Shown: positions 34,423 through 38,806 of the stretch, one piece after another | Position numbering within the stretch: position 1 is the stretch's first letter | Layout: each line of letters opens with the position of its first letter | NCBI GenBank assembly: GCA_031835245.1 | Contig: JAVKOQ010000141.1 | Span: 5,001 to 69,000 of the forward strand | Origin: Balamuthia mandrillaris | Taxonomy: Eukaryota > Discosea > Longamoebia > Balamuthiidae | DNA: 64,000 nt | Direction of reading: 5' to 3' | Program-made: the position numbers and the translations under genes | The notes under the pieces: model-generated | What the model saw: only the letters and a program-made list of their open reading frames with translations | Told to the model about the DNA's origin: nothing | Databases searched by the model: none

Positions 34423-37400
34423 ATGAAACCTACAAACTCGCCCGACTCTTTCTGGAAGTCAAAGTACAATGTACCTTTGCCAGGCACCATCAAACAGGTG
34501 AAAGGAGCCACGTTCGCCAGCTCAACTAAACAACAGGAAAGCAAGGACAGCAGCGGTGGGGGAAGTGGTGGTGGTGGTGGTGGTGGTGGTGGTGGAGGTC
34601 TTTCTGCCTTCTTCAACAGTCTGCGCACAAGCGGCATCGGAGGAGGAGGCAAATCCACCAATTCGGCCCTGTTGGACATCAGTGCTGCTTTTTCGGCCGA
34701 CACAGAAGACGACGACTTGGGAGAGGAGGATTACCTTCAAACTCATCAACAACCACAACAAAAAGGCAGAGGCAAGCAAACCACGAAAGCAAAGAAAGAC
34801 ATAGATGTAAAACAAGAGGAAAGGGAAGGGGGAAAAGGAGAGGAGGATGGCAGCCCTCCTCGCCGCCCTCCCAGGGGGCTAAACAGTAGAAAGGAAGAGC
34901 ATAAGCAGAGGCAGCAACAGGAGGAGAACGCAGAAAAAGGGAAAGAGGAGGAGGAGGAGAGTTTGGCTTTGGCTGCTGAGAACGCACAGCCACAGATACC
35001 TCCTAGCCAAGCCAACGCCTCCTCCTCCTCCTCGTCCCCGCAACTTGGCTCTGCCAAGCTTAAAAAGTTTGAGGCCTTGCTCGCCGAGCCTGTGGTGGAC
35101 CTTGGTACCTTTTCCCTTTTTGTTTTTATATTTTGTTTGTTGTAGAGGTGATGATAGTGGTGTTTCTGTTTGTCGATAGTTTGCTGATCTAGCGAACTAC
35201 AATGAATGGTTTATCGTGTATGATGCAGTTGCGTTGCGGAAAGCGAGTTGGTCAGGCATTCCTGCCTCTATGAGAGGACTCGTCTGGAAACTTTTACTGG
35301 TACTATTATCTTCCTTTCTTTTCGTTGGTAATGTGATGAGGATGTCATCATGGCAAGTAACTTCTTAAATTTATCCATATAAAAGGGATATCTTCCTAGC
35401 AACATGGATAGACGCGATAGCACTCTTCATCGGAAGAGACAGGTAAGTGAAATATCGTCTTTCTCCCATTTTCCCCAAAACACCACACACCTTCCATGGG
35501 CGGCTAGCTCCGAGTTTTCTCTGGCTCGATGACAGCTTTTGCTTTGTTGTCGGGCCAGGGGAGAACTATTTAAGCGCACGATTTCAGTCGTATTCCCACA
35601 TTCCCCACACATGTCACAAACCACACTACGAGAACCTACACAAGACTTACACTACATCGCCCCTGCCGAACTCATCGAACGCTGTGGCATCTCACACAGC
35701 GGCCTCGGCAAGTGGCACCAAGCGGGCAAGGTCGCAGCCCTTCGCACGCCGGGCGGCCACCGCCGCTATGCGGCAGAACACGTTAGATAGCTTCTTGGCT
35801 TCCCCGCCGACGCCGCGCCCGCTCAAAAGACCAAGGCCCTCTACTGCCGCACCTCTGACGAACGTATCCAACATCAGATTGAGAGTCTGCGGCAAGCCTA
35901 CCCAGACCACAAGGTTTACAGCGACACTGGGTCGGGCCTGACAGAACTGTCGAAGAGGTTGTGGTTGCCCACCGAGATCAGCTCTGTCGGGTCTCCTTCG
36001 AGCTCCTCGAGCTATAATGCTTATCTTCCGTAAACGTGGAACCCGTATCGTGGTGCACCATGCGCACGATGCGGAGGACGATTCCAGACCCGACCACGAG
36101 CTTGCTGAGGACTTCTTTACCCTCGCCGCCGACTTTGTCCGTGAACGACAGCGTCAAGGACGACATCCAGCACCACAAAGAGGCGGACCAAGCTCGTCAA
36201 CGAAGACGCAGTCGAGTGGGCAAGAAACGACTCGTAAGCGGAAACGACAACGGGACAGTGGCAGAGGAAGAGGAACTCAAGAAGACGGGAAGATACGACT
36301 CTATCCGAATAGGGAACAGTCTCAAATCCTCAATCGTTGGTTTGGCGGTGCGAGGAAGGTCTGGAACACCACCCTCCAAGAGCTGAAGAAGGAACAGATC
36401 GGGTGGAACCTGAAGGAGATGCAGAGCGTTTGCGTGGTTAAGCCGGCCCGTCACTCTTTCGACTACCTCGACGATGTGCCCTACAGCGTCCGTCCAAGGA
36501 TCCTTGGTCAGTACATCCGCTGGTGGGAGGGCTTCATCTATCCCGACCTGCTACATTCCAATCCAAGGAAAACAAGGAGGTCCTCTTCACCAAAACACCA
36601 CCGCCCGCTCTTCGATCCGCAGCCAGTTACTCACGAGGATGTGGAAGTGGACGAGAGAGGCCGGTTGAAGAGAACGTGCACCATACATAAGGACAAGCGA
36701 CAGCGATTCTGGTTGTGTGTGCCAATCCCCATCAAGCGCCATGAAAGGACCTCTGATAACCAAGGGGGTATCGTGGTATTGGATCCAGGGGTTCGCACCT
36801 TCTTGTGCGGCTACAGTCCTACGGAGGGAACGGTTCGGGAGTTTGGACGCAACGACGTTGGCCGCCTGTGGCGCCTTGGCAAGCACGCCGATGACCTGCA
36901 ATCCAAGATCGATAACAGCCCACTCAATCGACGCAAACGGATGACCCGAGTCCTGCTGAAGCTACGGAAACGGATCACGAACCTGGTCACCGAGTTTCAT
37001 CGCAAAACGGCACTCCTTCTTTGTCGGCACCACGACCACATCATCCTTCCCTCCTTTAGCACTAGGGGGATGACCGTCACGAGAGGGAACGGAGACGGAA
37101 GACCGGCAGAAAGACCGCCCGCATGCTGTACTCATGGGGACACTTCCGCTTTCGCGAGTGGTTGATGAATGTCTTCGCGTGACTCATCAACAGAGGGCCG
37201 ACAACCGACGCAACCGGATCTTCGAGTGTGGTTACGGGGACTGTGGGATACGACTGGATCGTGACGTAAATGGAGCGCGCAACATTCTTCTTCGGAACCT
37301 TGTTGCGTAGCGTTGCCCGATAGTGGCCAGGGGTGGGAACAATGGGGTGGGCGGGCGATTTATAAGCCTCATAGTCCTACCACTTGCGACCCCACTTCCT

Positions 37401-38545
37401 GCTAAAACATTCAATTTGTGAAAATACTCACTTTTGTGAATTTGAACCTATCAGGAGTACTATGACGCTGTTCCCAAATATTTTGACATTGCTGAAGAAG
37501 ATAAAACAGAATATGAACGAGCACTATTTCGGCAGGTCAGCAGTGTTGCTTTTCCCACCTTTTAAAGCTATTCAATGCTGACAACCTTCTTTATGTATTA
37601 CCATTGGTGGATGATACAGATACACATTGACATTCCTCGTACGCATCCCAACGTATCGCTCTTCCAGCAAGAAAAAGTACAACAGGTAGGTGTTGTTAGG
37701 ATATGGTGGTTCTGACTAGACGTACAGAGCTAACAAGTTGGACTATGGACAGTGCATAGAGCGGATACTTTACATTTGGGCGATTCGGCATCCTGCAACA
37801 GGCTATGTGCAGGGTATCAACGACCTCGCCACCCCCTTCTTTGTAGTTTTTTTGTCCACAGCCACCGGTTTGTTGCTCCTTGCTTTTTAAAATGGTGAGA
37901 ATGGAGAGAAAAAAAACTATTGGATACTCACACTTTTGTCATGAGTAGGCGAGGATTGGCAAACGTGCGATGTTTCGAAGGTGCCCACCGAAGTTTTGGA
38001 TGCTGTTGAAGCAGATTCCTACTGGTGCCTTTATGCACTGCTTGACGGTATTCAAGACCAATACACCACCTCTCAACCTGGAATACAGCACATGATTTAC
38101 AAACTTAAAGAGTTGATTCGCCGCATAGATAGTACTACTATTCCTCCTTTTGTGTTGTTTGTTTTGACCCACCATCTCATGTACTACGACTGTAGCACCT
38201 CTGGATTTGCATCTGGAGCAACAGGAAGTACAGTTTATTCAGTTCGCCTTTCGGTGGATGAACTGTTTGCTTATGCGAGAAGTCCCACTGCCGCTGGTCA
38301 TTCGGATGTGGGATACTTACCTGGCGGAAGCAGATGGCTTCAGCATCTTTCACGTTTACGTTTGCGCCTCGTTCTTGACCATGTGGTCGGATCAGCTGCA
38401 GAGCCGCGACTTTTCAGGCATCATGCTTTTCTTCCAACACCTACCAACCAGCCAATGGAGTGTCAGTGACATCGAGATGTTGCTCTCTCAGGCCTTCATG
38501 CTAAAGACCTTGTACCATGACTCCCAAGCTCACCTCAAGCCGTGA
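34423..38545 (+). CDS. TBC1D22: TBC1D22-family Rab GTPase-activating protein
   Basis: Rab-GAP acting at the Golgi/endomembrane. Exons: 34423-35103, 35229-35299, 35386-35442, 37455-37534, 37620-37685, 37753-37867, about 37949-38136, and 38200-38545. The start FWKSKYNVPLPGTIKQVKGA matches animal TBC1D22. Low-complexity Gly, Glu and Ser runs follow, then KKFEALLAEPVVDL. The TBC domain begins LRKASWSGIPASMRGLVWKLL. It has both GAP fingers: Arg in IHIDIPRTHPN and Gln in GYVQGINDLATPFF. It ends with QFAFRWMNCLLMREVPLPL and WDTYLAEADGFSIFHVY. Intron 3 (35443-37454) is 2,012 nt, far longer than its ~60-125-nt neighbours, because it holds a decayed IS607 element in the same orientation. The gene itself looks intact. 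Confidence 0.93.
35611..36200 (+). pseudogene. tnpA: IS607-type serine recombinase TnpA remnant
   Basis: From ATG 35611 a MerR-like helix-turn-helix domain is intact (IAPAELIERCGISHSGLGKWHQAGKV ... RTPGGHRRY, shown abridged), but a TAG at 35788 ends the frame. Resolvase-type segments continue in other frames: ALYCRTSDERIQHQIESL with the expected active-site Ser, YSDTGSGL, VVVAHRDQLCRVSFELLEL, then FRKRGTRIVVH and HELAEDFFTLAADF. The segment normally found between SGL and VVVAH (about 17 residues) is missing. At least one stop, one deletion and one or two frameshifts therefore separate it from a working gene. A TATA-like 'ctatttaag' lies about 45 bp upstream of the ATG. Confidence 0.82.
36280..37310 (+). 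pseudogene. TnpB/Fanzor2-type RNA-guided nuclease remnant
   Basis: A long frame starts with the family N-terminal motif KIRLYPNREQSQILNRWFGG (from about 36284). It runs through WLCVPIPI, the RuvC-I motif VVLDPGVRTFLCGYSP with its Asp, GRNDVGRLWRLG and ILPSFSTRGM, the RuvC-II position. The Glu of bacterial TnpB RuvC-II is not at this position (ILPSFS), in line with the rearranged RuvC-II of Fanzors. A frameshift near 37085 moves to KTARMLYSWGHFRFREWLM. A stop and deletion follow, then FECGYGDCG and the RuvC-III motif DRDVNGARNILLRN, ending TAG 37308-37310. The first zinc-knuckle CxxC is missing. Overall the nuclease is inactive as read, but decay looks modest. Confidence 0.85.
37311..37410 (+). 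ncRNA. Possible guide-RNA-like structured end of the IS607 element
   Basis: Immediately after the RuvC-III coding remnant is a GC-rich ~90-bp stretch with short complementary blocks: AGTGG with CCACT and TGGGGT with ACCCCA, in interleaved order that would permit a pseudoknot. TnpB and Fanzor elements carry their guide RNA at the 3' end overlapping or following the nuclease gene, so this is where it would be. The call rests on position and a few base pairs only. Confidence 0.25.
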
Positions 38546-38806
38546 TATTGTGGGCTTCTGCTCTCCTTCCCTCCAAGCTGCCTGCTGATATGAAGTGTTG
38601 CAAGATGGAAGCTTGAAGCTTTTCTTGATCGCCTGCCATTATATTAAACTTGCAACTTTTGCAGATCTTGCGTGAATGATGCACCTTAGTGGGTGTATTT
38701 ACGGGCGGGTTGTTCGCCCCCAGAGCGAGGAGGATGCTCCTGGCCATGCATGCAAGGTATCAAAAATATTTTAGCTTTATTTGTGATCTTATTGGCCAAC
38801 CGGGGG
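38546..38806. terminator. Convergent 3' region, TBC1D22 / RhoGEF
   Basis: These 261 bp separate converging stop codons. They hold an AT-rich segment (38757-38790) suitable for polyadenylation signals, and no gene. Confidence 0.45.

Follow-up and report, generated by a model that had tools for sequence, protein, structure and literature searches.

A probable autonomous introner of the IS607 family forms the third intron of a TBC1D22-like gene in Balamuthia mandrillaris

The window analysed here, a stretch of 64,000 nucleotides of the Balamuthia mandrillaris genome (assembly GCA_031835245.1, contig JAVKOQ010000141.1, positions 5,001 to 69,000), contains a gene for a TBC1D22-like Rab GTPase-activating protein (Rab-GAP), the third intron of which appears to be a decayed copy of an autonomous IS607-type transposon. 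The gene (34423..38545 of the window, plus strand) was assigned by a gene model, PF00566 and PDB 2qfz; it has 8 exons, encodes 534 amino acids and in the gene model has introns of 124, 86, 2,012, 84, 67, 81 and 64 nt from 5' to 3'. A sequence-only reading of the window had pointed to the size of intron 3 (35443-37454, GTAAGTG...CTATCAG) and to a shift in GC content at its edges, and both hold: its 2,012 nt compare with 64-124 nt in the six other introns, and its GC content is 0.553 against 0.458 in the flanks. The product of the joined exons matches TBC1D22A (PDB 2qfz) over residues 210-533 (E 2e-115), gapless at the exon 3/4 junction, which lies at residue 270 within the RabGAP-TBC domain (residues 241-486), in line with the splice-removable insertion that had been proposed.

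Within the intron, and in the direction of the host gene as had been read from the letters alone, lie the remains of two transposon genes. The first (35611..36033, plus strand) is a TnpA remnant with an in-frame stop and frame changes, in which a MerR-type helix-turn-helix (HTH) is followed by a serine-recombinase remnant. PF00376 (MerR HTH) is above cut-off at 35611-35787 and NF033518 (transpos_IS607) matches 35668-35958 with one internal TAG; 35791-36033 scanned alone gave no family match. The second (36239..37310, plus strand) is a TnpB/Fanzor2-type remnant that loses its frame ahead of the zinc-ribbon part: PF12323 (HTH_OrfB_IS605) and NF040570 (guided_TnpB, 55.7 bits, short of its cut-off of 100) cover 36239-37162, and PF07282 (the TNB zinc-ribbon part) is above cut-off at 37074-37310 in another frame. 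Profile search thus recovered both the recombinase and the nuclease remnant that the sequence-only reading had named. The left end of the element, GTAAGTGAAATATCGT (35443..35458, plus strand), doubles as the 5' splice site and is conserved among the copies described below and in a genome-wide left-end pattern. It is preceded by the target CAG (35440..35442, plus strand), the final bases of the exon, placed by left-end alignments and a motif scan, which is identical to the three right-terminal bases of the element. This terminal CAG (37452..37454, plus strand) is the 3' splice site, as delimited by the right ends of the copies and a genome-wide right-end pattern.

Another copy of the TBC1D22-like gene in the same assembly (L077) is intron-free and contiguous at this place, aligning to 34423-35443 and 37452-38629 with the remaining introns included. 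Because it keeps the other introns, a retrocopy was rejected as its source, a check made for the window gene only. The whole element (35443..37454, plus strand) is therefore best described as the intron itself, and the earlier view of an element sitting inside an intron has to be given up. Insertion of an ordinary IS607 element into a pre-existing TBC1D22 intron would agree with the general knowledge that transposons commonly sit in introns and with the shortness of the other TBC1D22 introns, but the intron-free copy rules it out, barring a precise loss of such an intron from that copy, and the same two edges recur in many copies whose outer exons are unrelated; we regard it as highly improbable.

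A DNA search of the intron against its own genome returned 78 matches, itself included. Thirty-six matching stretches were fetched and aligned to the intron with 500 bp on each side, and those that reach an end tend to break off at the intron edge or a few bases from it. Given the 78 matches and this tendency, the resemblance is not due to chance. The prediction of live relatives elsewhere in the genome is likewise supported by these matches and by open TnpA and TnpB frames in one copy, L016. The assembly measures 64.8 Mb and, since gene copies are a few percent apart and some contigs are nearly identical (C39, C43), seems to hold diverged haplotypes, both of which may enter the copy counts. 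Left ends placed by alignment read CAG/GTAAG in 11 of 11 cases (the slash marks the edge; two pairs are near-identical contig copies). Right ends read YATCAG/ in 29 of 31, near-identical contig copies included, with one CTATAAG, one unclear case (L041) and any base next, so that the measured copies have the general form CAG/GT...YATCAG/N. Allowing at most one mismatch, the genome contains 112 matches to the right-end pattern and 30 to the left-end pattern, with 0 for either reversed control; both haplotypes may be counted among these, and at least one of the 112 (C52) looks like chance. The sequence-only reading had seen one copy; the element stands, and its extent across the genome, with 112 right-end matches, had been missed.

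In 20 paired copies, position -3 is C in 20 of 20 and position -4 is A or G in 19 of 20; this set required AG before GT, so its free evidence starts at -3, and it includes the near-duplicate pairs L023-/L039 and L035/L037. A motif scan without a flank condition found CAG before 18 of 19 left ends, counting matches with 0-1 mismatches minus L031+6878, which was judged to be chance. The 27 measured copies are 68-2,371 nt long (median 175). As in introners, there are thus many intron copies whose similarity ends at the splice sites. A third subfamily ending in TTTTGAATCTATCAG (L023 on the minus strand, L039, L035, L037, L034 and L055) consists of short copies only, no long member having been found among the copies. 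Three single observations concern the arrangement of copies. At L010:1475-6078 a near-complete copy apparently interrupts a second one in its TnpB part, so that one introner would lie within another. A left-end variant, CAGGTGAGTGAAATATCGT, is common to C36:280175, C222:6063, C260:48299 and C296:59038 and could represent another subfamily or a duplicated gene. At L060 the host sequence GCCAGCACTCTTCTA stands on one side of a right-end copy and its reverse complement on the other.

Presence and absence of the intron were compared by searching the joined 75+75-nt flanks of 25 sites in the same assembly (L035, L039, L016/L017, L025, L038, L088, L089 and, except for L051 and L066, the right-end-only copies were left out). 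The empty-site comparison that had been suggested for defining the ends could therefore be made within this one assembly. An intron-free counterpart contiguous across the junction was found at 14 of the 25 sites, namely the window site, L009, two sites in L015, L018, L026, L030, L042, L045, L055, L064, L011, L051 and the plus-strand L023, which agrees with the presence/absence polymorphism expected of introners. Twelve counterparts were aligned over 201-220 nt at 95.4-98.6% identity, five of them showing one or two small gaps, and two further alignments gave 97.3 and 99.5%. The counterpart of L066 is also intron-free and was not counted among the 14 because it has 12 nt more exon. That of L070 (L089) is empty at the site and carries its own introner 13 nt downstream, the two insertions being apparently independent. 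Target duplications of 8-10 nt at L051 and L066, considered as a second insertion pathway, were rejected: in L051 the repeat is better read as filler that was copied from the exon downstream once the left end had been lost, and in L066 the counterpart has the 12 additional nucleotides of exon.

Beyond CAG/CNG, nothing is shared between the two edges at the 14 contiguous intron-free sites, so that there is no target duplication beyond a short core, as in IS607 elements; terminal inverted repeats were not seen on inspection by eye. Between filled and empty copies, 73 of 2,583 positions differ, and in the four bases that precede the element 5 of 48 do (p 0.009 compared with all other positions, in a test picked after seeing the data). 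At position -2, the filled copy has A and the empty copy C or T at 3 of 12 aligned sites, and L089 looks like one more such site. This base change fits a crossover and would be accounted for if the element brought the core with it. The same sites bear on the idea that the intron-free copies are derived, by precise loss through TnpA excision or complementary DNA (cDNA), rather than ancestral to a recent gain. IS607 excision does reseal the donor, according to PMC4058570, and loss at some sites is possible; as a general account, however, precise loss seems unlikely given the non-A bases at -2 in 3 of 12 intron-free sites, and the cDNA route is improbable where other introns remain.

The effect of the copies on their host genes was assessed by scanning the joined flanks of 17 distinct sites for Pfam domains. 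A domain above cut-off bridges the junction at 9 of the 17: TBC in the window, OGT-type Glyco_transf_41 (L018), RF-1 (L055), FAT (L034), HGTP_anticodon2 (L024), a myosin head at the 68-nt copy L054, RasGEF_N_2 and PMM at the long copies L015 (2,371 nt) and L011 (2,347 nt), and Vps5 at L030 (27.7 bits against a cut-off of 27). At L067 a domain bridges the junction below its cut-off.

Taken together, these observations are best explained by an autonomous introner, that is, an entire transposon of the IS607 family in which the left end serves as a 5' splice site and the right end supplies the branch site and the 3' splice site (probability roughly 0.85). By analogy, it would be the spliceosomal counterpart of the bacterial IStrons. 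We propose that TnpA places the element behind CNG (in most cases CAG) through a crossover within a short core; such a crossover, without target duplication, would leave CAG at both edges. The presence and absence of the insert at otherwise matching sites were observed directly, and the part played by TnpA is presumed. When the element lands in sense orientation in a gene, the spliceosome would excise exactly the inserted DNA, and the protein would therefore remain unchanged. Subsequently, the interior of the insert would be lost, at least three copies being reshaped at the site, presumably by break repair with filler from the neighbouring exon, and further short copies may already have been short when they moved; the outcome would be introns roughly 70-330 nt long. 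Together, TnpB and the conserved right end would probably act as an RNA-guided nuclease that aids persistence, as in other IS607 elements.

A different origin would have the introns spread as RNA, through reverse splicing and reverse transcription, with the IS607 genes as passengers. The exactness of the splice boundaries would suit this, as would the shared direction of element and host gene at the 9 domain-bridging sites. However, the intron-free copy of the window gene keeps the neighbouring introns, TnpA is open in several copies and has been selected, the inner scars with filler from exon DNA resemble DNA repair, and the base change at -2 fits a crossover, so that spread as RNA appears very unlikely.

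Several observations nevertheless weigh against an autonomous introner of the IS607 family. What was observed at the copies is coding continuity, from which we infer splicing; the domain scan covered sense frames only, which takes away its value as a test of orientation, and 7 of the 17 joined flanks had no domain or, in L051, one off the junction only, which with L067 makes 8 of 17 without a bridging domain above cut-off. No intron-free counterpart was found in the assembly for 8 of the 25 sites (minus-strand L023, L037, L047, L056, L014, L054, L034 and L024), and the counterpart of L067 carries a shorter version at the same place. One left end, L029, is preceded by AAG, and in several of the copies found by their right end no left end could be recognised; these may lie outside genes. 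The core also departs from what is known of the family: CAG stands at both edges and its middle base differs at 3 of 12 intron-free sites, a variable CNG in place of the plain identical dinucleotide of IS607. Finally, no start codon is evident for TnpB close to where its conserved frame begins (DTTVKDDIQ onward, L016:2706-2750 and equivalents); TnpB could be translated through a frameshift, internal splicing or fusion to TnpA. A public gene model, P0001, which was not used as evidence, joins TnpA and TnpB domains in one protein with part of the overlap missing.

Short copies, when mapped on long ones, lack inner parts, several of their junctions share 1-4 bases, and most of them retain both ends. 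Three carry filler identical to their own neighbouring exon (41 nt in L064, 32 nt in L047 and 18 nt in L051), and the longest match to any other copy's flank was 13 nt among 20 copies. Copied filler is a typical trace of break repair. Since the filler comes from their own exons, L064, L047 and L051 were reshaped at the site after insertion. Deletion in place cannot cover every short copy, because the breakpoints of L047 and L056 differ by no more than 3 nt on either side and because an inner segment of the third subfamily, GCCAATGCATANGGAGTTTA, occurs at two unrelated sites, L023-/L039 and L035/L037, and is absent from the long copies seen; these shared features also tell against the shrinking step as proposed above. 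Some short forms may hence move as units. That many of them are non-autonomous moving units rather than in-place deletions, a view compatible with an autonomous introner as their source, is a serious possibility, if short of even odds: besides the shared breakpoints and segment, the retention of both ends speaks for it, and known introners are often non-autonomous according to PMC9860276. Against it stand the three copies reshaped at their sites, and the comparison of 23 internally deleted copies, in which an alignment covering 80% or more of each partner was obtained only for two near-duplicate site pairs (88 and 93% identical) and for L018/L034 (73%).

The coding capacity of the family is better preserved outside the window. 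NF033518 finds 20 places in the genome, 10 of them above cut-off, with other IS607 lineages and near-identical contigs included. In L016, the open TnpA frame reaches 150.1 bits with NF033518 (cut-off 110), with PF00239 above its cut-off and MerR below its own, and the open TnpB frame reaches 144.4 bits with NF040570 (cut-off 100). TnpA matches solved catalytic domains of serine recombinases, among them those of ISC1904, ISC1926 and IS1535. The profiles of L016 and of the window copy together indicate a serine recombinase with an N-terminal MerR-type HTH, and the attribution to the IS607 family made by the sequence-only reading is thereby confirmed. The best solved match for TnpB is the TnpB-like protein L79, presumably of mimivirus, and by this match and the profiles the nuclease is assigned to the TnpB/Fanzor2 type. 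D289, E432 and D473, which we take to be the catalytic (RuvC) residues of TnpB, are invariant in 8 of 8 aligned TnpBs, as are C439, C442, C461 and C466 of the zinc ribbon; RuvC D, E, D together with a zinc ribbon is the pattern of Fanzor2/TnpB nucleases.

Both genes appear to have been under purifying selection, TnpB most, judging from the ratio of nonsynonymous to synonymous substitution rates (dN/dS) in three diverged pairs among L016, L011 and L010a: 0.135, 0.187 and 0.26 for TnpB and 0.495, 0.29 and 0.306 for TnpA, with the reservation, which counts against the reading, that the two frames overlap and blur the ratio there. Among the best 120 of 1,449 matches, near-full-length TnpB relatives are about 30-37% identical, besides two Balamuthia records (P0001, P0002) and one match at 57% identity (P0003). 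The family itself has diverged within this genome down to about 65% DNA identity. The recent transfer from bacteria that had been suspected is not supported, because the TnpB relatives are distant and the family is diverged in its own genome. When viral contigs were scanned once with TnpB, there were 221 pattern matches, none of them a relative.

The right end (about 147 nt, 37308..37454, plus strand) was delimited by an alignment of 18 sequences (A1) and its consensus structure, and is proposed to combine a guide-RNA scaffold, a branch site, a 3' splice site and a recombination end. A candidate branch site, CTCAC (37427..37431, plus strand), is invariant in the 18 aligned right ends and is missing from the 79-nt copy L045. 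It fits the branch-site consensus yUnAy. In the consensus structure, six pairs link bases near the TnpB stop to bases beside the terminal AG; in the window, the proposed 5' arm lies at 37319..37325 (plus strand) and its partner, the 3' arm adjoining the terminal AG, at 37447..37452 (plus strand). In the 18 right ends, 98.1% of the cells of these pairs can pair, compared with 20-56% in slid controls. Changes on both sides occur in two of the six pairs, which 170 of 500 shuffles equal, and the number of further pair types is reached by 443 of 500 shuffles. Since the changes on both sides stem from one related group of three rows (window, L009 and L018) and two of five shuffle measures are unexceptional, the terminal pairing is suggestive only. 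A search of 35400-37600 gave no Rfam match up to E 1, a result that concerns the decayed window copy only.

As a tentative extension, which we would more readily doubt than accept, the right end could serve at once as recombination end, as branch and 3' splice site and as the 3' end of the TnpB guide scaffold. With the scaffold ending there, the downstream exon would be the guide and the CAG proto-splice site the target motif of the nuclease, so that TnpB would cut intron-free alleles and the intron would home by an RNA-guided nuclease. Complete repair of a cut intron-free allele would copy the intron in, which would amount to homing of a spliceosomal intron, and aborted repair would yield short introns with shared bases and exon filler. 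As splicing separates the scaffold from the guide, splicing and guide-making would compete, and such competition has been proposed for bacterial IStrons. Several short copies (L018, L034 and the shared part of L023- and L035) start at or near the scaffold start, CGTTGCCCG, which fits the guide and homing proposal without proving it; RNA-guided cleavage by TnpB, with an omega RNA and a TAM as in Fanzor2/TnpB nucleases, is a presumed function, towards which the present sequences offer a conserved right end whose pairing has limited support.

Known systems resemble the element in part. IS607 elements lack terminal inverted repeats (TIRs) and target-site duplications (TSDs), exchange over 2 bp of identity and reseal the donor, according to PMC6188088 and PMC4058570. 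The introners of Gozashti 2022 (PMC9860276, main text) are likewise repeated introns with similar ends that leave messenger RNA length mostly unchanged, and some families carry both splice sites; many families derive from non-autonomous transposons, and 49 of 130 have TSDs and 72 of 177 TIRs. In contrast, full-length copies here encode a serine recombinase and TnpB, and neither a TSD nor a TIR was seen; the main text of that paper, its supplement lying outside the search, contains none of the terms serine recombinase, TnpB, Balamuthia and Amoebozoa. Group B IStrons, which combine IS607 with a group I intron, similarly have IS607-type ORF A and ORF B (open reading frames) in a self-removing intron that hides the insertion; they use a group I ribozyme and GG-containing targets, according to PMC4227781, whereas the element described here presumably depends on the spliceosome, has a CAG/CNG target and gave no Rfam match, a group I ribozyme included, in the decayed window copy. 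The architecture of TnpA with TnpB/Fanzor2 is shared with eukaryotic and giant-virus IS607 elements carrying Fanzor2 (PMC3627910, PMC10711439), the main texts of which do not contain the terms intron or splic; nor does the term transpos occur in PMC4665321, on the Balamuthia genome, in a term search only. No literature joining introners with IS607 or Fanzor was found, supplements lying outside the search. A 2025 paper reportedly deals with introners and diverse transposons and may bear on novelty.

The origin of new spliceosomal introns is a long-standing question, and here intron birth is open to study as presence and absence between gene copies. Because long open copies, intron-free sites and shortened copies occur in one genome, insertion, splicing and shrinking are each testable. 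If splicing holds true, the IS607/TnpB lineage would have turned into a concealed intron on no fewer than two occasions, relying on a group I ribozyme in bacteria and on the spliceosome in a eukaryote, and a Fanzor2-type nuclease would be linked to intron gain.

The same genome also contains a second IS607 lineage with long TnpA and TnpB frames (L075 in C774 and L076 in C622). Its right end is apparently ...GCAAGTTTAATGTAGGCG (...TAGGCG), which is not an AG 3' splice site. A fragment resembling this right end (87.5% over 32 nt) lies just 3' of the TBC1D22-like gene at 38640-38671 of the window (minus strand), and the intron-free gene copy has the same second-lineage fragment beside its TBC1D22 (L077:8-159, 86% over 158 nt).

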